Source of the DNA: a virus
Virus record (IMG/VR): IMGVR_UViG_3300046519_000452
Location: 1-39,603 of that record
Strand: one strand, 5' to 3'
DNA: 39,603 nt
Position 1 is the first letter of the stretch. Each line of letters begins with the position of its first letter. Below, in pieces: positions 19,024 to 38,982 of the stretch. The notes beneath the pieces were generated by a model that worked only from the letters and a program-made list of their open reading frames with translations, did no database searches and had not been told where the DNA came from. A program made the translations under genes and the position numbers.

Positions 19024-19281
19024 TTATTCCCCTTGCTCGTTGTGATCGTTGGCGTCTTCTTGCACGCCGTTAGCGCGGTTGAGCCGCAAAATAATGTGAT
19101 CGAGAACCTCGCGGTTCCCGGCCTGCTTGTAGGTTGTGAGGATTGCGTCGATGCCGCCAACGGTGCAGGCGTTGCGGGCAAAGCGCTGAATCATCAGCTC
19201 CAGCACCATGCGGCCTTCGTGGTGATCCTCGAACACCCGCTTGAACATCGCGTCGATCTGTTCGACGGTCATGCCGGTCAT
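19024..19281 (-). CDS. small head-region protein resembling the Bbp19 phage family
   Basis: An 85-aa protein between portal and scaffold. The core FEDHHEGRMVLELMIQRF...GGIDAILTTYKQAGNREVLDHIILRLN resembles the short Bbp19-like domain named from Bordetella phage BPP-1, found at this place in related podoviruses. Its role is not known. It overlaps the portal stop by 4 bp, with AAGGGG upstream. Confidence 0.7.
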   Translation of the reverse strand: MTGMTVEQIDAMFKRVFEDHHEGRMVLELMIQRFARNACTVGGIDAILTTYKQAGNREVLDHIILRLNRANGVQEDANDHNEQGE

Positions 19282-20873
19282 GCTGCTGCCCCTTGTTGCT
19301 TGAGTGCGGCGTCAGCGGCTTGCTGCTGCATCATTTGCTGTTGCGCCTGCTCCTGGGCCTGCTGGTTGGCTGCGGCTCGATCCTCGCGGATCTTGTCGCG
19401 GTCGGCCTTGCTGCGGATGATCGACGAAGGGACACCCAGGGCTTCGCCCTTGAAGCGCTGGGCCTCGTCCATGTCGATGTTGTCCATGACTGTCGGATCG
19501 GACTGAGCAACAACCAGCGCGCCGGCAACGAACTGGTCAATGGCCGTGACCTCTTCCAGTTTCTGCGAGCGTGCCAGTGGCGACAGATAGCGCACGGTGA
19601 AGTTGCGGCCAGCCAGCGACTCAGGCGCCACGCCCAGCACGCCAGCCCGGTATGCAATGCCGAAACACCGCTCGATCAGCGGTTGCAGGTACTCGGTTTG
19701 CAGCCGGCCATAGACCGGGCCGAGCAATTGACGGATCAGGTTCACGCGCACGTGCACCTCGGTTGCTGTCATCGCCGGACCGTCCTGCGCCTGGAGCTGA
19801 TCGGCCATCAGGATCTTGCGGATGGAAGCCTGCAGGCGGGCGATCTTCGTTTCGGCGTACTGGAAGTTCGAACCGCTTTGCAGCGGCTTCATGCTGTCCA
19901 CCGAGTTCGCAACGATGATCTTGCGCGGCCCAACCTTCACGGTTCTGGGGTTGAGTACCCCGTCGTCCTCGGCAATCCACATCCCTGCAATGGCCAAATC
20001 ACCGGCAGCCAAATCCATGCGGCAAAGCTCGTTGAGGGTGCGGGAATCAGGCAGCGCGTCGAACACGGGCCCAACCGCATAGACGCTGTCCGGGATCATC
20101 ATCCAGCGTGGCACCACGACCGGCATTTCGTGATAGCCGGACTCGCTGACCAGCTTCTTCGCGGCCACCTCGACCTTGCACGAAGCGATCGGCATGTTCT
20201 TCGCCAGCTTGGCGCCGACCATGTAGGTAGTGCGCGGATAGATCGCGTGAACGAACTGCACCAGCTCCTGCGGCTTGTCCTTGGCCAGCTTGCGCGTGGT
20301 CTCGCTCAGGTTCTCTTCACCGAACTCGTTCACGGCCTGCTCTGCCGTGAGCTTGTACTCGCGATACACGGTGTCGATCTTGCCGCCGGCCTTGGACGCC
20401 GAGACGTACACGCTCGCGATTGGCCATAGGTCGAAGGTGAAACCGCCTTGCACCATGTCCTGATCGATGTACAGGGCAAACCATCCAGCGCACACAACGT
20501 CGATAAGCCCCTCGAAAGCGGCCGCGTCAAAGTTGGATGCGTGGATGTTCTGCCAGAGAATGTCCGCCGAGTCGTCCAGCCAGCGGCGTTCCTCGTCAGT
20601 CTCCTGCCCGACGTCCATGCCGAACCACAACGAGTTCGCCGGCGTCAGGCCGGACATGATGCCACTCGACAGGATGCGCGCCGCGTCGGTGGTGGTGCCA
20701 TCGATCATCCTGGCCTTGCGCATCTGCGCTTCAATGGCCGTGATTTGCTCAGTGCAAAAGCCGCTACCCCGAATCGGGTAGCTGTGGTCGAAGCAATCGC
20801 GCCAGACCGACTCATGCGGCGAGCGGAGAGACTTCAAGGTGCTCAACGTTTTGGCGATCTGGGCTGCGTTCAT
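19278..20873 (-). CDS. portal / head-tail connector protein
   Basis: A 531-aa protein of the T7 gp8-type connector family: early SGIMSGLTPANSLWFGM, a middle PDSRTLNELCRMDLAAGDLAIAGM, and TATEVHVRVNLIRQLLGPVYGRLQTEYLQPLIERCF are conserved features. It forms the dodecameric ring for DNA passage and terminase docking. The C-terminus is a low-complexity Gln/Ala run (about 495-531). It begins in a 4-bp overlap with the preceding small gene. Confidence 0.92.
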   Translation of the reverse strand: MNAAQIAKTLSTLKSLRSPHESVWRDCFDHSYPIRGSGFCTEQITAIEAQMRKARMIDGTTTDAARILSSGIMSGLTPANSLWFGMDVGQETDEERRWLDDSADILWQNIHASNFDAAAFEGLIDVVCAGWFALYIDQDMVQGGFTFDLWPIASVYVSASKAGGKIDTVYREYKLTAEQAVNEFGEENLSETTRKLAKDKPQELVQFVHAIYPRTTYMVGAKLAKNMPIASCKVEVAAKKLVSESGYHEMPVVVPRWMMIPDSVYAVGPVFDALPDSRTLNELCRMDLAAGDLAIAGMWIAEDDGVLNPRTVKVGPRKIIVANSVDSMKPLQSGSNFQYAETKIARLQASIRKILMADQLQAQDGPAMTATEVHVRVNLIRQLLGPVYGRLQTEYLQPLIERCFGIAYRAGVLGVAPESLAGRNFTVRYLSPLARSQKLEEVTAIDQFVAGALVVAQSDPTVMDNIDMDEAQRFKGEALGVPSSIIRSKADRDKIREDRAAANQQAQEQAQQQMMQQQAADAALKQQGAAA

Positions 20874-21103
20874 GCTCCGAGAGTCCTTTTCCCTTGATCG
20901 AGGACGGTTTCCGTAGATCCACGCGATCCTTGGGGCATACCGCGTGCGCCGCCGGTGGATAGCAGGCTGCTCTCCTGCTTGCGCTTCTTGCGTGCGGCGG
21001 TTTCGGAGTTGGCTTTCTCTGTGGCCAGGTCTGCGGCCTTTTGCGCTTCGACCTGGGGGTCAGGCGCGGCAACAACCTTTGGCTTCTTCGGTTTGCTTCC
21101 CAC
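20870..21103 (-). CDS. small basic phage protein upstream of portal
   Basis: A 77-aa protein, very basic at the N-terminus (GSKPKKPKVVAAPDPQVEAQKAADLATEKANSETAARKKRKQ) with a conserved-looking glycine segment LLSTGGARGMPQGS. Similar short proteins occur just before portals in podoviruses; their role is undefined. It is coupled to the portal by ATGA overlap. Confidence 0.65.
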   Translation of the reverse strand: MGSKPKKPKVVAAPDPQVEAQKAADLATEKANSETAARKKRKQESSLLSTGGARGMPQGSRGSTETVLDQGKRTLGA

Positions 21104-21108
21104 AGGCC

Positions 21109-21525
21109 TTACTCCTTCACTGGTGGCTCAGGGCACAACCAACCCTCAGGGGTCATCACTGGCTGTTTGATTTTGGTGGCATCAACGTCGGTCGTTGATG
21201 GCTTGGCAGTGGTCAGCGCCGCGCGGTCTTCCTTGCGCTCGGGATCCAGCACCAACGGTTCGCCGCCATCAGCCAGGCGCTGAGCCTCAGCAATGGCCGC
21301 ATCCTTGCTGCCGACGAAGTCACTGAACCAGTCAGCACCACCGTCAGCTTCGGTCTTCCAGACCTTCCAGCGGCCGCCACCGTTGTGCTTGGCGGTGAAC
21401 TCGGGGGCCTTCGCTTGATCGCCATCAGGTTCGCTGGTGGTCTTGGTGTCGGTGCTGTTGAGCGGCGTGATAGTGCCCAGCTGTTCGCCGGGCGTTTGGG
21501 TGGTAAGAGTTTCTGGAGCTGGCAT
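21109..21525 (-). CDS. hypothetical virion-region protein
   Basis: A 138-aa acidic protein with a Thr/Pro-rich, probably disordered N-terminus and a central KHNGGGRWKVWKTEADGGADWFSDFVGSKDAAIAEAQRLADGG, which looks like a small alpha/beta domain. It lies between the Acb2 and portal groups, all on the same strand. I do not recognise it. Confidence 0.6.
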   Translation of the reverse strand: MPAPETLTTQTPGEQLGTITPLNSTDTKTTSEPDGDQAKAPEFTAKHNGGGRWKVWKTEADGGADWFSDFVGSKDAAIAEAQRLADGGEPLVLDPERKEDRAALTTAKPSTTDVDATKIKQPVMTPEGWLCPEPPVKE

Positions 21526-21567
21526 GGTCGTGTCTCCTGTGCTGCTGCGGGTGGTTGGCGGCGGGGA

Positions 21568-21798
21568 TTAGAAAAACGGGTCAGCAGGCTTAGCGATGGA
21601 GCGCACAAACCACATGAAGCCCTGCTGCAAGTTGGTCTTGGCCAACGCCAGCAGACGCGGATCAACACCTTCAATCTGGCCGATCTGCTTGAACAACTCG
21701 CCGGCGTCCGCTTCCAAAGCCTTGATCGAGTTCATGCCATCGATCTCGGCCTGAGTAAGATCGCGATAGCCGGTGATTTTCTTGTGCTGGTTGTCCAT
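21568..21798 (-). CDS. acb2: Acb2-family anti-CBASS cyclic-nucleotide sponge
   Basis: A 76-aa helical protein of the Acb2/Tad1-hairpin type (long annotated as a DUF in Pseudomonas phages). Known members bind cyclic di- and trinucleotides and so block CBASS immunity. What I see: KITGYRDLTQAEIDGMNSIKAL at the N-terminus and LAKTNLQQGFMWFVRSIAKP at the C-terminus, both typical of the family. With ATG at 21798 (GAGGG upstream), Tyr is residue 11 and Lys residue 26, the positions I recall as ligand contacts in phage PaMx33 Acb2. It is placed in the late operon after Rz and preceded by a conserved hairpin motif. Confidence 0.85.
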   Translation of the reverse strand: MDNQHKKITGYRDLTQAEIDGMNSIKALEADAGELFKQIGQIEGVDPRLLALAKTNLQQGFMWFVRSIAKPADPFF

Positions 21799-21862
21799 GG
21801 GTGAAGCCCTCAAGCTGATGGGGAATCAACGAATTGAGGGCCAAGCATCTGAGAGGTGGGCT

Positions 21863-21881
21863 GTCGGGTTCCCGACTATTT
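21863..21881 (-). promoter_or_regulatory. conserved hairpin motif, copy 4
   Basis: GTCGGGTTCCCGACTATTT overlaps the Rz stop codon (TAG, 21876-21878) and lies 65 bp before the Acb2 start. The stem is extended to GTCGGG/CCCGAC. Confidence 0.75.
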
Positions 21882-22325
21882 GCGAGGGATGCAGGCGGTG
21901 TTCACGTAGTCCTGCAGCGCGGTCAGGGCGATGATTGCCTCGTCTCCGTCGTTGCCGGCGGTGAGAATTCGCGCAGCAGACGCTGGGTCAAGTTCGGCTC
22001 TCGCTTCTGCATCATCCACGCCGGTGGTGGCGGTGACGGCTCGCACTGCGGGACAACGGGCTGGGACTGACAGCCGCTGAGCGCCAGTGCCGACGCGAGC
22101 AAGAAGGTCTTTGTTCTGGGCCTGAGCATCGGTGAGCTCCTTGGTGTGTTTGGTGTCGAGGTCCAGCAATAGGCGCTGGGTGTTGCGGCGGGAGTCGGCA
22201 GCGGCTTCCAGCTCGGTGATGGTGCCCTCGGCGCGGGTCAGGCTGGTGCTGACGTGATCGAGGCGCCAGAGGGTCAGCAGCAGGCCGACGATGAGCGCGG
22301 CGCAGATGCCGGCGAGGATCTTCAT
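21876..22325 (-). CDS. Rz: Rz-type inner-membrane spanin
   Basis: A 149-aa protein with an N-terminal membrane anchor (ILAGICAALIVGLLLTLW) and a periplasmic coiled coil (SLTRAEGTITELEAAADSRRNTQRLLLDLDTKHTKELTDAQAQNKDLLARV), the layout of i-spanins. Paired with Rz1 it fuses inner and outer membranes at the end of lysis. ATG at 22325 overlaps the endolysin stop (ATGA). Confidence 0.9.
   Translation of the reverse strand: MKILAGICAALIVGLLLTLWRLDHVSTSLTRAEGTITELEAAADSRRNTQRLLLDLDTKHTKELTDAQAQNKDLLARVGTGAQRLSVPARCPAVRAVTATTGVDDAEARAELDPASAARILTAGNDGDEAIIALTALQDYVNTACIPRK
21923..22129 (-). CDS. Rz1: Rz1 outer-membrane spanin lipoprotein, nested in Rz
   Basis: A 68-aa frame embedded in Rz in another register. 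MLRPRTKTFLLASALALSGC is a signal peptide ending in the lipobox LSGC. The proline-rich part VVPQCEPSPPPPAW is characteristic of Rz1. The nested gene layout is the classical lambda arrangement. Confidence 0.85.
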   Translation of the reverse strand: MLRPRTKTFLLASALALSGCQSQPVVPQCEPSPPPPAWMMQKREPNLTQRLLREFSPPATTETRQSSP

Positions 22326-22834
22326 TGCGCCGCCTTGCACTGAGCATTGCGCTCAAGCTGGCGAGTCCACACGCCTGGGCACCGCTTGTTGCCCGGTGTC
22401 GAACAGTCAAAGCCAGCGGCAAAGCGGTACTTGAGTAGATCGGCGCAGGCCTGCGAGTAGTTGCCCGCTTGCAGGTCGCGGCGCATCGAGGACTGACGCC
22501 AGGTGCCAATGCCGTACTGCCCCACGAAGTCCATGTACAGATCGAACTCGACCGGGAAAAGCTTCACGCCTGGCAGTGAGGCGGCAAACAGCTTCTCGTC
22601 TTGAGTCAGCAGGTTGCGGGCGAGCACCTCAGCGCGCTGTGGGGTGATGCGGTCGCCCAACTGGACTGGCCGGCCGTCCTCGTATCGAGTCGAGCCATGG
22701 CCGATGGTGGGCACGTCGCCCTTGGTGGGGATGATTGCGTGATCGGTGAAGCCTTCGTTGGCCTTCCAGGCGCCGAAACCGGCGAGGCTCACGGTCAGAA
22801 GGCTGACGGCTATGCGTTGGCGGGACTGGCTCAT
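22322..22834 (-). CDS. SAR endolysin, GH24 lysozyme
   Basis: A 170-aa muramidase. Residues 7-24 (RIAVSLLTVSLAGFGAWK) are a weakly hydrophobic signal-arrest-release segment rich in Ala/Gly/Ser. The catalytic Glu is E27 in ANEGF, followed by KGDVPTIGHGST with T43 in the expected place; the residue usually Asp in T4-type enzymes appears as Thr37, as in several phage relatives with PTKGD. Four Cys lie in the C-terminal part (ACADLL, FDCSTPGNKRCPG, AQCKAAQ). ATG overlaps the holin stop. Confidence 0.9.
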   Translation of the reverse strand: MSQSRQRIAVSLLTVSLAGFGAWKANEGFTDHAIIPTKGDVPTIGHGSTRYEDGRPVQLGDRITPQRAEVLARNLLTQDEKLFAASLPGVKLFPVEFDLYMDFVGQYGIGTWRQSSMRRDLQAGNYSQACADLLKYRFAAGFDCSTPGNKRCPGVWTRQLERNAQCKAAQ

Positions 22835-23103
22835 AGCTCGCACTTATCCAGCAGGGCTTTGATGCGGGCCTGGCTCTCTGCCGTGCGCGCCAAGCTTTCT
22901 GCGTGCTCCCGACGATCCTTGCGCACCTGGAAGTACAAGTTGATCAGCAGGCCCAGCACCGCTATGACCACGCCTGAAGCACCGATCCAGTTCACCTGCG
23001 AAAAGAAACCAACGAGACCGGCACCGGCGCCGGCCAACATGCCCTTGTTCGCAACGGATGCGCCCACAACCTCTACGATGCTCTCCGGTGATGGGTTGGC
23101 CAT
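22831..23103 (-). CDS. holin
   Basis: A 90-aa protein with two close hydrophobic segments (about 22-36 and 39-60), then a charged, helical C-terminus (RKDRREHAESLARTAESQARIKALL), the class II holin layout. It is the first gene of the lysis cassette and overlaps the endolysin start. I chose ATG at 23103 because AGGAG lies eight bases upstream; longer in-frame starts run into the terminator. Confidence 0.85.
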   Translation of the reverse strand: MANPSPESIVEVVGASVANKGMLAGAGAGLVGFFSQVNWIGASGVVIAVLGLLINLYFQVRKDRREHAESLARTAESQARIKALLDKCEL

Positions 23104-23148
23104 GCTGTTGCTCCTGACTGGGGCTTTCATGGTTGGGCCTCCAGGGTC

Positions 23149-23176
23149 AAAAAAAAGCCCCGCACTGTGGCGGGGC
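23149..23176 (-). terminator. strong intrinsic terminator just upstream of the lysis/late genes
   Basis: GCCCCGC/GCGGGGC has a six-base loop and is followed by eight T residues on the minus strand. It lies between the early-left genes and the holin, only 33 bp after the conserved motif at 23209, so all late transcription from the left arm must pass it. Confidence 0.9.
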
Positions 23177-23208
23177 AGCGATGACGGCAAGGATCATCGG
23201 GAGCAGGT

Positions 23209-27637: not shown

Positions 27638-27967
27638 ATGAAGTTCACGCAAATCATGCTTTTAGTCACAGCTCTATCGTCGTCCGCTCATGCCCTCGCT
27701 TATACCGGTAATGATCTGATCCAGTGGTTGCCCGAATATGAGGCCAACAAAGGCTCATGGGCGGGAGGTATGTTTCTCGGATATGTAGGTGGCGTTTCTG
27801 AGGTTGGGCAAGGAGTTTTGTATTGCGCCCCTGCGACCGCCACTCACGGACAGAGTGCTGCGATCACTGCGAAATACCTGAGGAACAATCCGGAGAAATG
27901 GAACCTGTCAGCTTCCTCACTGATTGTGTCCGCGCTACAGGCGGCCTACCCCGCATGTAAGCCCTGA
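27638..27967 (+). CDS. Rap1a/Tai-type periplasmic immunity protein
   Basis: A 109-aa protein with a signal peptide (MKFTQIMLLVTALSSSAHALA, cleavage after AHA or ALA) and a mature domain of the Rap1a/Tai immunity type (GNDLIQWLPEYEANKGSWAGGMFLGYVGGVSEVG...YLRNNPEKWNLSASSLIVSALQAAYPACK). Known members neutralise type VI secretion peptidoglycan amidases in the periplasm. Two Cys (LYC, PAC) may form a disulfide. It follows the repressor on the same strand and has its own terminator, so it is probably expressed in the lysogen as a conversion gene. No matching toxin gene is in the window. Confidence 0.8.
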   Translation: MKFTQIMLLVTALSSSAHALAYTGNDLIQWLPEYEANKGSWAGGMFLGYVGGVSEVGQGVLYCAPATATHGQSAAITAKYLRNNPEKWNLSASSLIVSALQAAYPACKP

Positions 27968-32212: not shown

Positions 32213-33460
32213 ATGAAGCCCGAACACAAAGCAATCATTGAGCGCGCAAAGCTGGCGGACGTTCCCGCGTCCTACATTGCGCACGAACTGCTGGTACACG
32301 ACTTGGTTGAGTCCGGTCTGTTTGAACTGAAAAACCTGCACTCACCGTATGGCAAGTTGAACGAAGGCCAGCAGCAGGAAGTGATCGATCGCCTGACCGA
32401 AGCGGCGACCGCCGCTGCACACAACGCTATTGCGATCATCAGTTCGCGCAATGTCTCGACCATCGAAGTCACGATGAAAGAGGTCAAGTTCAACTCCAAG
32501 CAGTTGACCCTGACGTCCATCGTCGACGCAAAAGACCCGAACCGGCACGACCTGATCGACAGCGCCGGCCGACTGTGTCTGTTGGTGATGGCGCCAGACG
32601 ACTATGCCGAGGGCCTGGACTTCATCCAGCCAGATCGCGACCAGCCTGATCTGCCGCTTCACGTCAGCGAGCTGACCGGCAGCCTATTCGACGGCAAAGC
32701 GACTGGGCCTGATGAACCGGATGGATTCGAACACACCACCGGGGAAGTTGAAGATGGCCTGTACAGCCAGGCCGTGGCGTTTGTTCTGGAGAGCCGCCGC
32801 GCAACAATCTCGGCAGTACAGCGCAAGTTGAAAATCGGCTACAACCGTGCCGCCGAGTTGATGAACCAGATGGAGAGCTTCGGCGTGGTGAGCCCGATGG
32901 ACCACACCGGCGCCCGCGAAGTGATGCTGAGCCCTCGCGGCGAAGAGAAAATCAGCCTTGCCGATGCCGACAATCAAACCGGCAGCAAGGATCCTCTCTA
33001 CACCGAAGCCGTTGAACAGTTGATTGCCTACGGTCGGCTGGGTGCTGCCGCAATTGCTGGGGCATTGAGCATCAGCAACGAACGGGCAGCCCAGATGCTT
33101 GACGCAATGGTCGAGTCAGGCGCAGCTGTTGCGGTCGATGGCGGCAACGTGTTCGAAATCAAAGGTGGTGCAGAAGCAGAAGGCAATGCCGAGGATGAAA
33201 ACTTCGGCCTTGTCGATATGGAAACCAAAGAGTTCGGCGACTTCAGCTACGAAGATGCCAAACAATTGATCGTGCTGAAGGCCCAGACCAAGCCATTCAA
33301 GGCCCACTGGGTGCAGAGCCGTCTCGCGATCGATAGCGACAAGGTGGCATCCCTGCTGCTGCGCCTGCTCGATGACAAGGTGGTCGAGGTTGAAGCCGAG
33401 GGCGAATCAGCGCTGGAACACAGCTACAAGGTCGTCGCCACGCTGGCTGACGTCGTTTAA
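32213..33460 (+). CDS. protein with three tandem FtsK-gamma-like winged helices and no motor
   Basis: A 415-aa protein. Residues 182-240 (LYSQAVAFVLESRRATISAVQRKLKIGYNRAAELMNQMESFGVVSP) match closely the DNA-reading gamma domain at the C-terminus of FtsK, which recognises KOPS. Two more divergent copies follow at about 260-317 and 343-398. The N-terminal 170 residues (unknown, alpha/beta) contain no Walker motif, so this is not a translocase. It could bind KOPS or other phage sites, or compete with or recruit host FtsK or XerCD; this is inference. A terminator follows at 33483-33506. Confidence 0.8.
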   Translation: MKPEHKAIIERAKLADVPASYIAHELLVHDLVESGLFELKNLHSPYGKLNEGQQQEVIDRLTEAATAAAHNAIAIISSRNVSTIEVTMKEVKFNSKQLTLTSIVDAKDPNRHDLIDSAGRLCLLVMAPDDYAEGLDFIQPDRDQPDLPLHVSELTGSLFDGKATGPDEPDGFEHTTGEVEDGLYSQAVAFVLESRRATISAVQRKLKIGYNRAAELMNQMESFGVVSPMDHTGAREVMLSPRGEEKISLADADNQTGSKDPLYTEAVEQLIAYGRLGAAAIAGALSISNERAAQMLDAMVESGAAVAVDGGNVFEIKGGAEAEGNAEDENFGLVDMETKEFGDFSYEDAKQLIVLKAQTKPFKAHWVQSRLAIDSDKVASLLLRLLDDKVVEVEAEGESALEHSYKVVATLADVV

Positions 33461-35095: not shown

Positions 35096-35148
35096 TCTTC
35101 GCCACCGTGTTCATGCTCCAGCACATCTACCGAGGGCCGTGGCGATGA
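35092..35148 (+). CDS. possible 18-aa coupling peptide
   Basis: ATG overlaps the upstream TGA and its TGA overlaps the methyltransferase ATG. The 18-residue product (MIFATVFMLQHIYRGPWR) is a candidate for translational coupling rather than a functional protein. Confidence 0.3.
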   Translation: MIFATVFMLQHIYRGPWR

Positions 35149-36410
35149 CAAAGCCTTATCAAATTCTGATCGGAGACTGCATCAGCCTTCTGCGTTCGAT
35201 GCCGGATAACTCCGTAGACAGCGTGGTAACCGACCCACCCTATGGCATTCGCTTTATGGGCAAAAGCTGGGACGGCAAAGACATCGAGGAGCGCACCGCT
35301 TACCGAGCCAGCAAGCCATCCCGCGATTCTGCGTGCGGCCAAAGTGGTGGGCACCGATCCGTCGCAGCCGAAGCCGGAAAGTACGACTTAACACCCGGTG
35401 GTATGAAGGCATTTCAGGCCTTCACGCGGGATTGGGCCGCCGAGTGTTTGCGAGTTCTAAAGCCAGGCGGACACCTGCTGTCATTCGCTGCTGCTCGAAC
35501 CTATCACCACATGGCGGTGGGCATCGAGATGGCTGGCTTCGAGATCCGCGACCAGATCATGTGGGTGTTCGGCTCAGGCTTCCCGAAGTCGCACAACCTA
35601 CGCGGCGACCAAGACGGTTGGGGGACTGCGCTTAAACCAGCGCACGAACCAATCTGCATGGCCAGGAAGCCACTTGCCGGAACAGTGCTGATGAACGTCA
35701 TCGCGCACGGTGTCGGAGCACTGAACATCAATGCATGTCGGATACCAGCCGAGCCCATGCCAATGAACACTGGTGCGGGAGGGCTTCCGCGTCGTTATGA
35801 AGACGAGCAACGCGGACCTGGGGTTGTGGCGCAGCCTCACGAAGCGGGACGCTGGCCAGCCAACTTGATTCACGATGGCAGTCCCGAAGTAGTCGCCATG
35901 TTCCCCGCCGAGGCTGGCGCCAGCGCGCCAGTGCTTGGCACCGAGCCGACGGCCAACGGTTTCAGCGGTGCGGTGAAGTACAGCGGCATGCTCAATCGTG
36001 TGGCCGGAGCCTTCCACGGTGACAGCGGGAGTGCCGCCCGGTTTTTCTACTGCGCGAAGACCAGTCGAAGTGACCGAAATGAGGGGTGCGAAACACTGGA
36101 TAGAAAGCCTTTGAACTGGTCGAGCGGTGAGGCAAACCCTGGCAGCTTCCAATCGATCGGAACAGACAGGACCAGCCAGAACAATCACCCGACAGTAAAA
36201 CCCACCGACTTGATGGCCTACTTGCTGCGCCTGGTCACTCCGGCCGGCGGCGTTGCGCTCGATCCCTTCATGGGCAGCGGCAGCACCGGCAAGGCCGCCA
36301 TGCGCGAAGGCTTTCAGTTCATCGGCTGTGAAATAGACGAGCAGTACGCAGCGATCGCTCGCGCACGGATCCAGCACGAACTGGCACAGCCAAAGCAGTG
36401 GTCGCTATGA
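35145..36410 (+). CDS. beta-class DNA N6-adenine/N4-cytosine methyltransferase
   Basis: A 421-aa protein with DPPY at 30-33 (motif IV), HPTVKP at 348-353 and DPFMGSGSTG at 373-382 (motif I, AdoMet). Catalytic motif before AdoMet motif is the beta order. The variable region between 40 and 340 should contain the target recognition part. There is no restriction enzyme next to it, so it is an orphan, probably protecting phage DNA or tuning expression. ATG at 35145 (GAGGG upstream) is preferred over GTG at 35139. Confidence 0.9.
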   Translation: MTKPYQILIGDCISLLRSMPDNSVDSVVTDPPYGIRFMGKSWDGKDIEERTAYRASKPSRDSACGQSGGHRSVAAEAGKYDLTPGGMKAFQAFTRDWAAECLRVLKPGGHLLSFAAARTYHHMAVGIEMAGFEIRDQIMWVFGSGFPKSHNLRGDQDGWGTALKPAHEPICMARKPLAGTVLMNVIAHGVGALNINACRIPAEPMPMNTGAGGLPRRYEDEQRGPGVVAQPHEAGRWPANLIHDGSPEVVAMFPAEAGASAPVLGTEPTANGFSGAVKYSGMLNRVAGAFHGDSGSAARFFYCAKTSRSDRNEGCETLDRKPLNWSSGEANPGSFQSIGTDRTSQNNHPTVKPTDLMAYLLRLVTPAGGVALDPFMGSGSTGKAAMREGFQFIGCEIDEQYAAIARARIQHELAQPKQWSL

Positions 36411-36889: not shown

Positions 36890-37141
36890 ATGATGAACAC
36901 CATGCGCACCGACGATCAGCACGAAGCGCCAATCGAGTACATCAAGCTGCCAGAGGTCAAGCGAATCTCCGGCCTGAGCACGGCGACCATCTACCGTATG
37001 GCGGTCGCCGGCAAATTCCCCAAGCAGGTGAAAATCGGGGATGCCGCCGTTGCCTGGGTCCGGTCTGAGGTCGACCAGTGGGCCAGCAGCAAGTCAGCGG
37101 CCCGCACCGGTCAGCCCTCAGCCTCCAGCAAATCCAAGTAA
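36890..37141 (+). CDS. AlpA-family regulator, probable excisionase
   Basis: An 83-aa protein with a MerR-like winged HTH typical of AlpA/excisionases (YIKLPEVKRISGLSTATIYRMAVAGKFPKQVKIGDAAVAWVRSEVDQWA). It should bend DNA at attR/attL and direct excision by the integrase. AGGAG precedes ATG. Its 3' end overlaps the 3' end of the convergent integrase by 31 bp. Confidence 0.85.
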   Translation: MMNTMRTDDQHEAPIEYIKLPEVKRISGLSTATIYRMAVAGKFPKQVKIGDAAVAWVRSEVDQWASSKSAARTGQPSASSKSK

Positions 37142-38340
37142 TCCGCCCAATCCTGCATCATCCCCCGCCGCTGCTCCACGTACTCTGCGTGGTTGTAGGT
37201 CTTCCTGACCTTGCTTGAACCCGCATGCGAAAGCTGCGCCTCGATCCAATCCTCGTTGTAGCCCATCTCGTTCAAGGCCGTCGAAATCGTCGCGCGGATC
37301 CCGTGCCCGGTCAGCCTGCCTTCATATCCCATGCGTTTAAGTGCCATGTTGACTGTGCCGTCGCTGATTGGCTTTGCCGGGTCATGCCGGCCAGCGATCA
37401 GAAGCTTGTACCCGCCAGTCAACTGGTGCACCTTGCGCGCTTCCTCCACCGCCTGCCGCGACAGCGGCACCAAATACGGCGGAACAACCCCCTCTCCCTT
37501 TACCCTGATAACCTTCTTCAACTGCTTTACAGTGCCAGCCGGCACGGTCCACAGCCCGCCGTCGAAGTCGAACTGATCGACTGTCGCACTTCGCAACTCA
37601 ATAGTCCGAACCCCAGTGAGCAGCAATAATCTGATTGCGCTCCGCGTGTATGGCTTCAGATCGGCCTCACGCAGCGAAGCCAGGAACGCTTTCAGGTCAT
37701 GTTGCCGAAGCATTGGGTTGTGCTTTTCTGGCGGCTCCTTGGCCGCGACAATGTCCAGGTCTGATGCCGGATTGATATCCAGATACCCGGACGCGATACC
37801 AAACCTGAAAATCTCGTTCAACCAGGTGCGGCACTTGCGGGCCACATTCAGCGCCCCGCGTCTCTCGATGGTGCGCAGGGTTGCCAGCACTTCCGAGCGC
37901 GTCACCTCGACAATGGGGATTTTGCCGAGTGATGCCACCAAGTCCTTGTTCAGGTAGAGCATGGCCTGATTCGCCGCCCCTCTCTTCGACTTTGCCCAGC
38001 GCGGCAACTTGAAGGCATACCACTCGTTCGCCACCACTTCGAAGGTCTTGACCGAAGAATCAGCCGCGGCCCGCTTTTCCTGCCGGCGCTGCAACCGTGG
38101 GTCGATACCCTTTGCAACCAGAGCCCGAGCCTGATCGCGCAACTCGCGGGCTTCCTTGAGGGTGATTTCCGGGTATGTGCCCAGCGACATGCGCGGCTGC
38201 TTGCCGTGCCAGGAGAAACGGAAGTGCCAAGACTTCGTGCCGTTCGGAGCGATGAACAGGGACAGGCCGTTGCCGTCCGTTATGGAGAATTCCTTTTCGG
38301 CCGGTTTGGCCTGGCGTACAGCGGTATCTGTCAGGGGCAT
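37111..38340 (-). CDS. int: tyrosine recombinase integrase (P4-like)
   Basis: A 409-aa protein. The N-terminal arm-binding domain (DUF4102 type) begins LTDTAVRQAKPAEKEFSITDGNGLSLFI; catalytic residues are R245 (LTGVRTIEL), H346/R349 (HGIRATISTALNEMG), H372 (LSHAG) and the tyrosine at 382 (TYNHAEY; Y387 is the alternative). It integrates the phage at the tRNA-Leu 3' end. It lies next to attR and is convergent with the excisionase. No strong ribosome site; GGTGA precedes ATG. Confidence 0.95.
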   Translation of the reverse strand: MPLTDTAVRQAKPAEKEFSITDGNGLSLFIAPNGTKSWHFRFSWHGKQPRMSLGTYPEITLKEARELRDQARALVAKGIDPRLQRRQEKRAAADSSVKTFEVVANEWYAFKLPRWAKSKRGAANQAMLYLNKDLVASLGKIPIVEVTRSEVLATLRTIERRGALNVARKCRTWLNEIFRFGIASGYLDINPASDLDIVAAKEPPEKHNPMLRQHDLKAFLASLREADLKPYTRSAIRLLLLTGVRTIELRSATVDQFDFDGGLWTVPAGTVKQLKKVIRVKGEGVVPPYLVPLSRQAVEEARKVHQLTGGYKLLIAGRHDPAKPISDGTVNMALKRMGYEGRLTGHGIRATISTALNEMGYNEDWIEAQLSHAGSSKVRKTYNHAEYVEQRRGMMQDWADYLDLLEAEG

Positions 38341-38502: not shown

Positions 38503-38521
38503 ATGGTGCCCGAAGCCGGAA
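38503..38521. other. attR: attR core within tRNA-Leu
   Basis: A 19-bp repeat identical to 1728-1746, at the 3' end of the intact tRNA-Leu gene, 163 bp from int. Confidence 0.9.
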
Positions 38522-38590
38522 TCGAACCGGCACGCCCTTACGAGCGGGGGATTTTAAGTCCCATGCGTCTACCAGTTTCGCCATTCGGGC
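38504..38590 (-). tRNA. tRNA-Leu (anticodon UAA)
   Basis: An 87-nt cloverleaf with long variable arm, encoded CCA (38504-38506), acceptor GCCCGAA/TTCGGGC and anticodon complement at 38554-38556. The phage copy of the 3' end keeps it intact after integration. Confidence 0.95.
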
Positions 38591-38665
38591 GGTAGCGCGG
38601 TGTTGCTGTCTTCTGCTGCGCGGTAGCGATCCTGACAGGATCCAGCCTTGAACAGTAGTGCGGGA

Positions 38666-38694
38666 AATATATACATCACTTCCCGGTGAAGCAA
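38666..38694 (-). promoter_or_regulatory. tRNA-Leu promoter
   Basis: TTGCTT, 17 bp, TATATT on the minus strand, about 75 bp before the tRNA and after the terminator of the Gly-Cys transcript, so tRNA-Leu has its own promoter. Confidence 0.65.
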
Positions 38695-38743
38695 GTTCGC
38701 AATGGCCGTTTTTCAAGACTAAATCTTGCAGCGCAGTGCAAAT

Positions 38744-38778
38744 AAAAAAGCTCCGTAAATCATGGATCTACGGAGCTT
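38744..38778 (-). terminator. terminator of the tRNA-Gly/tRNA-Cys transcript
   Basis: AAGCTCCGTA pairs with TACGGAGCTT, with six T on the minus strand. Confidence 0.85.
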
Positions 38779-38786
38779 GTTTATAG

Positions 38787-38860
38787 TGGAGGCCGAGGTC
38801 GGAATCGAACCGGCGTAGGTGGATTTGCAATCCACTGCATAACCATTTTGCTACTCGGCC
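38787..38860 (-). tRNA. tRNA-Cys (anticodon GCA)
   Basis: A 74-nt gene with encoded CCA, acceptor GGCCGAG/CTCGGCC and anticodon complement TGC at 38826-38828. Confidence 0.95.
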
Positions 38861-38906
38861 TCAAAGTATTTGCTGTCAGTAGCACAACAACAAACACTGT
38901 ACAAAT

Positions 38907-38982
<76 letters not shown>

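Follow-up and report, generated by a model that had tools for sequence, protein, structure and literature searches.

A short-hairpin Acb2-family protein encoded in the late operon of a Pseudomonas prophage

The prophage and its late operon

The window analysed here is the whole of a virus record of 39,603 bases, and it represents an integrated Pseudomonas prophage together with some host DNA. Its head and tail genes place the phage among the T7-like podophages; they include those for a connector, a scaffold-like protein, a major head protein, tubular tail proteins and a terminase. The phage carries both an integrase and a repressor-like gene, which argues that it is temperate. A 19-base direct repeat is found in two copies near the ends of the window (Table 1) and likely marks the attachment sites, in which case the prophage would span about 36.8 kb.

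The gene that concerns us, acb2, encodes a protein of 76 amino acids. It is found after the holin, endolysin and Rz-like spanin genes and ahead of the connector, scaffold-like and capsid genes, all of them on the same strand, an arrangement that agrees with the late operon to which the preliminary description had assigned it. The gene that directly follows acb2, here called p138, gave no match in family scans. The start of the holin gene is more likely the ATG at 23130 than the TTG at 23190, since a terminator-like hairpin lies between the two. This hairpin is thus positioned ahead of the lysis genes and acb2, and because it stands just before the likely holin start, the lysis genes, acb2 and the head genes are probably carried on one late transcript that is read past the terminator, as far as a consensus match can indicate.

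The window also contains a number of genes away from this cluster. A gene for a Rap1a-like immunity protein adjoins the phage repressor; the family is named for immunity to type VI secretion toxins, and the gene is possibly a lysogeny cargo gene. Another phage protein contains an FtsK gamma domain, which in the chromosome translocase FtsK is normally the part that orients DNA. Finally, an N6/N4 DNA methylase gene is found near the integrase, with no evident restriction partner among the proteins scanned.

Table 1. Coordinates of features in the 39,603-base window
Feature	Position	Strand	Evidence or remark
19-base direct repeat	1728-1746 and 38503-38521		second copy at the end of tRNA-Leu
Head-tail connector (portal)	19278..20873	minus	phrog_332, 1.2e-154
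p77, 77-aa gene	20870..21103	minus	phrog_9015, 3.2e-8
p138, 138-aa gene downstream of acb2	21109..21525	minus	order conserved in relatives
Spacer after acb2, 42 bases	21526..21567	minus	AGGAG ribosome-site-like motif for the next gene
acb2	21568..21798	minus	PF24729, phrog_717, PDB 8h2j, Acb2 fold match
Rz-to-acb2 spacer	21799..21875	minus	related to the Rz-to-p138 spacer of relatives without acb2
Rz-like spanin, upstream of acb2	21876..22340	minus	phrog_2466, 9.1e-29
68-aa Rz1-like frame embedded in Rz	21923-22129	minus	open reading frame list only
Endolysin	22322..22843	minus	phrog_7, 1.4e-26
Holin	22831..23130	minus	phrog_4237, 4.7e-26
Terminator-like hairpin	23157..23176	minus	7 G-C pairs then 8 T; consensus match only
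Rap1a-like immunity protein gene	27638-27967	plus	PF18602, 8e-17
Phage protein with FtsK gamma domain	32213-33460	plus	2.5e-30
N6/N4 DNA methylase gene	35139-36410	plus
Integrase	37111-38340
tRNA-Leu, tRNA-Cys and tRNA-Gly genes	38504-38982
Phosphatidyltransferase gene	39043 onward

Coding evidence

The acb2 frame lies exactly where a 76-aa protein had been proposed, and it is found on the minus strand, a detail that the proposal had left out. Its ATG start is at 21798 and its stop codon ends at 21568; the product is MDNQHKKITGYRDLTQAEIDGMNSIKALEADAGELFKQIGQIEGVDPRLLALAKTNLQQGFMWFVRSIAKPADPFF. An alternative TTG start five codons upstream would extend the protein to 81 aa. The ATG is identified as the conserved start by the comparison with 111 loci that harbor close copies, in which identity is near chance before the ATG and 93% from the ATG on.

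Across the same 111 loci, the identities at the three codon positions are 0.93, 0.99 and 0.66. Comparison of acb2 with 134 homologues that are at least 85% identical to it gives median values of 0.02 for dN, 1.1 for dS and 0.016 for dN/dS, and a maximum ratio of 0.05. The gene is real and is under strong purifying selection. A plus-strand open reading frame of 139 aa overlaps 21568-21798, and an antisense reading was considered and rejected: this frame is open in only 95 of the 134 homologues, which, together with the dN/dS of 0.016, indicates that the minus-strand frame is the real gene. In two published Pseudomonas phage records, L002 (BK061476, 19980-20675) and L004 (PP003914, 5980-6675), an antisense CDS is annotated over acb2, in one case under the name spanin, and the gene has been missed there as a result.

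Family membership and fold

The 76-aa protein clearly belongs to the known Acb2 family, as the preliminary description had correctly recognised, and is a new member of it, with a membership about as certain as sequence evidence allows. Proteins of this family take up small cyclic nucleotides that serve bacteria as an infection alarm. The Pfam domain PF24729 (Acb2/Tad1 hairpin) matches it with 68.7 bits, relative to a cut-off of 27, over model positions 1-58 of 58. It is matched at 4e-22 by PHROG 717, the PHROG that contains T4 Vs.4 (Jenson et al., PMC10097602). As a single sequence the protein finds the Acb2 structure 8h2j at 2e-13, with 8ixz also matched directly, and a profile built from 91 relatives finds the Acb2 chains (8h2j) at 1.3e-34 and Vs.4 (7uq2) at 7.8e-8. 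A scan of the protein against NCBIfam returned 0 matches.

The fold points the same way. An AlphaFold2 single-chain model (pLDDT 88.2) is an antiparallel two-helix protomer, with long helices at residues 16-40 and 47-69. The family-typical N- and C-terminal helices of the preliminary description are therefore seen in part: the two long helices are there, and the N-terminal one is only partly borne out, as DSSP assigns no helix to residues 1-15 of the single-chain model, where confidence is low at residues 1-10. In a Foldseek search of the PDB with this single chain, ranks 1-9 are all Acb2 or Vs.4 chains and the next match has an E-value of 2.5, so that the suggested comparison of a predicted structure with Acb2 favors the family assignment. 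VIA-align Z scores are 8.3 to 8h2j and 8.2 to 7uq2, with 6.7 for the best unrelated structure; values of this size are by themselves weak for a helical hairpin, and here sequence and structure agree.

Residues of the pocket and the interface

In T4 Vs.4, Y8 and F82 stack against cGAMP, which is bonded by Y8, H11, K23 and R79, and the hexamer is held together by L29, A66, A73 and A77 (Jenson et al., PMC10097602). Mutants in Y8 and F82 no longer inhibit CapV, and the hexamer is required (PMC10097602). In the alignment, Y11, K26 and R66 of the 76-aa protein correspond to T4 Y8, K23 and R79, and T15 corresponds to the helix-cap residue T12. Tyr 11 and Lys 26, which the preliminary description had named as ligand contacts of PaMx33 Acb2, are indeed present, and by homology that role is right, as T4 Y8 and K23 are reported contacts of cGAMP (PMC10097602). 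In an alignment of 206 sequences, most of which have the short form, Y11, K26 and A69 show no variation (206/206); R66 is retained in 205 sequences and R48 in 203.

Some T4 positions are different here. The contacts H11 and F82 are replaced by L14 and A69, and the interface residue A77 by F64; the interface residues A66 and A73 become A53 and G60, and both stay small. PaMx33 has L14, A88 and I83 at the places of H11, F82 and A77, and F64 is large, as is I83, so that, judged by the alignment, all of these changes are tolerated in PaMx33. Since PaMx33 Acb2 carries L14 and A88, H11 and F82 do not define the Acb2 family, but rather a T4-type subtype of the pocket. The dinucleotide-pocket residues that PaMx33 and T4 have in common are all kept. 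R48 aligns with R67 of PaMx33, which we take to be required for cyclic trinucleotides, and T4 is without an arginine at this place.

The PaMx33-like Acb2 proteins (8h2j, 8h2x, 8ixz series) share the fold, a nearly identical N-terminus (MDNQHKKIxGYRDLxQ) and the residues Y11, K26, R66/R85, R48/R67 and A69/A88. They differ in length, with 93 aa against 76 aa here, and the difference is found at the hairpin tip, where the stretch between residue 38 of helix 1 and R48 contains 9 residues in place of 28 and is thus 19 shorter. This short tip is found in 149 of the 206 aligned sequences. T4 Vs.4 shares the fold (Z 8.2) and the PHROG but is only about 28% identical. A more distant copy, that of L379 (3594-3818), shows 67% identity, and in it R66 is replaced by Lys, P71 by Ser and G60 by Ala, three positions that hardly vary elsewhere; its ligand may be a different one, or the gene may be decaying.

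Proposed mechanism and alternative readings

The 76-aa protein is best read as a short-hairpin Acb2-family sponge that is expressed late, forms a hexamer, holds cyclic di- and probably trinucleotides and thereby blunts CBASS, a reading to which we give a probability of about 0.88. For this phage we strongly infer the function as a whole, including hexamer formation, ligand binding, CBASS as the main target and expression in the lytic phase. During lytic growth Acb2 would be translated from the late transcript, and it would most likely assemble into a hexamer, in which cyclic dinucleotides such as 3',3'-cGAMP would be held in three inter-protomer pockets via Y11, K26 and R66. Cyclic trinucleotides such as cA3 would probably be held at the two interfaces between trimers, where R48 would correspond to R67 of PaMx33. 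The messengers would be sequestered rather than cut, leaving CBASS effectors such as CapV or NucC inactive. This sponge mechanism is that of PaMx33 and T4 (PMC10097602, PMC12043709, PMC10419184). According to a review, Acb2 acts when a lysogen is induced but not while it is being maintained (PMC12043709), and a late-operon position is consistent with this.

An Acb2-fold sponge might instead act mainly outside CBASS, for instance on the cA3 of type III CRISPR or in another nucleotide-signalling defence, with protection from CBASS secondary or absent. A wide range of cyclic di- and trinucleotides is bound by members of the family, and type III CRISPR uses cA3 as well (PMC12043709). The host data also lean this way to a degree, in that, of 28 genomes that harbor close copies, only 5 have a CBASS synthase (CD-NTase, SMODS) scoring over the cut-off, next to 18 of 199 in a sample of the genus; this is no clear excess (p = 0.18) in a comparison that is itself weak, as the two scans may differ in sensitivity and scored genome G001 differently. 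These counts neither support nor exclude a link with CBASS, and the earlier suggestion that this phage meets CBASS-carrying hosts is plausible but unproven. We consider a target mainly outside CBASS improbable, given that the shared dinucleotide-pocket residues are all retained and that the Acb2 proteins described in PMC12043709 and PMC10097602 act on CBASS.

Two readings would deny the protein a place among Acb2 sponges. It could be a small helical lysis or head-assembly helper with a superficial match, given that the gene has lysis genes on one side and head genes on the other and that hairpins of two helices are a common fold, several unrelated ones scoring Z 5 to 6.7. Sequence profile E-values that range from 5e-19 to 1e-34 make this very improbable, and most syntenic relatives are without acb2 while others carry it elsewhere, so that neither lysis nor assembly requires it. 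A Tad1-type sponge, which would take up the Thoeris signal gcADPR, shares the hairpin domain, and PF24729 spans both Acb2 and Tad1. In Tad1, an N-terminal beta-sheet region precedes the helices (PMC12043709). That region is absent from a protein of 76 aa in all with no strand in its predicted model, and the sequence and fold searches give Acb2 and Vs.4, so that we attach almost no weight to Tad1.

Distribution, gain and loss

Close acb2 copies are present in many Pseudomonas genomes. Outside the gene, the window is identical to the 111 loci only at chance level (28%). It was considered whether all 111 close copies might lie in unrelated contexts, and this was rejected: 87 of 107 loci fall into one common upstream flank group. 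Most of the acb2 loci thus belong to another large Pseudomonas prophage group, with flanks different from those of the window and with holins and spanins making up most of the identifiable upstream neighbors.

The connector gene served to find relatives of the phage in the window. As the records may be fragments, absence of acb2 is safest where the joining spacer itself is visible, and this is the case in L366, L367, L369, L376 and L381, in which Rz and p138 are separated by about 74 bases that contain no acb2. The L381 record has acb2 elsewhere, near the contig end. L379 has the gene where the window has it, and the spacer downstream of it is similar. In L397 a copy (96%) lies between the endolysin and Rz genes, and in L383 (93%) and L390 (99%) it is flanked by the scaffold-like gene and a gene that encodes an 85-aa protein. 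Acb2 of L390 is identical to that of the window at 98.7% of residues, compared with 73% for the connector. This contrast, along with the absent and shifted sites, indicates that acb2 either entered related genomes several times or moved within them. Close relatives are without it at this site, and some have near-identical copies elsewhere in the late operon, so that acb2 is a mobile accessory gene, one on which growth as such does not depend.

Known phages also place the gene variably. PaMx35, with a protein identical to the solved 93-aa sequence, has it at the end of a run of replication genes and not in a lysis cassette. JBD67, likewise a temperate Pseudomonas phage, has an Acb2-family gene among its late head genes but is of another phage type, with a match region of 106 codons located between the genes for the major head protein and the head-tail adaptor. 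The P. aeruginosa phages 5400, vB_PaeS-D14B and vB_Pae_U2 encode 76-aa homologues that are 92% identical and adjoin the endolysin gene, although their backbones are unrelated (D14B has lambda-like tail genes) and the order is endolysin, acb2, Rz.

This gain, loss and shifting of position is the most interesting part of the acb2 case. A counter-defence gene becomes known from this group of temperate Pseudomonas podophages, in which naturally occurring close relatives that have or lack acb2 offer a ready test of what a sponge costs and gains against CBASS and Panoptes. Panoptes can turn Acb2 against the phage (PMC12657218), and this would offer one explanation for the patchy presence of the gene. 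A more far-reaching proposal, which we regard as speculative and rather doubtful, is that short-hairpin Acb2 constitutes a distinct, highly constrained and widely exchanged sponge of Pseudomonas temperate phages, gained and lost repeatedly at several late-operon sites, perhaps because hosts with Panoptes-type guards punish it and CBASS hosts reward it.

Several other observations concern the wider family. Close copies of acb2 are broken in genomes of Pseudomonas lini, P. entomophila and P. fluorescens (L109, L112 and L113), by a stop codon, by a deletion plus a stop or by loss of the start region. A divergent branch of the family (about 35% identity, VKGYRKLSDAEIAAMN...) lies downstream of the scaffold-like gene in L407, L420, L432 and L434, podophages in which the connector is about 60% identical. 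Among the scanned downstream neighbors of acb2, 9 of 43 are matched by an HslV-family peptidase (L007, 6422-6931, and similar loci), in Pseudomonas prophage loci. Finally, a family member (L124, 5487-5711) is encoded on a metagenome-assembled contig assigned to the archaeon Candidatus Nitrosotalea, which represents either an archaeal virus or a misassigned contig.
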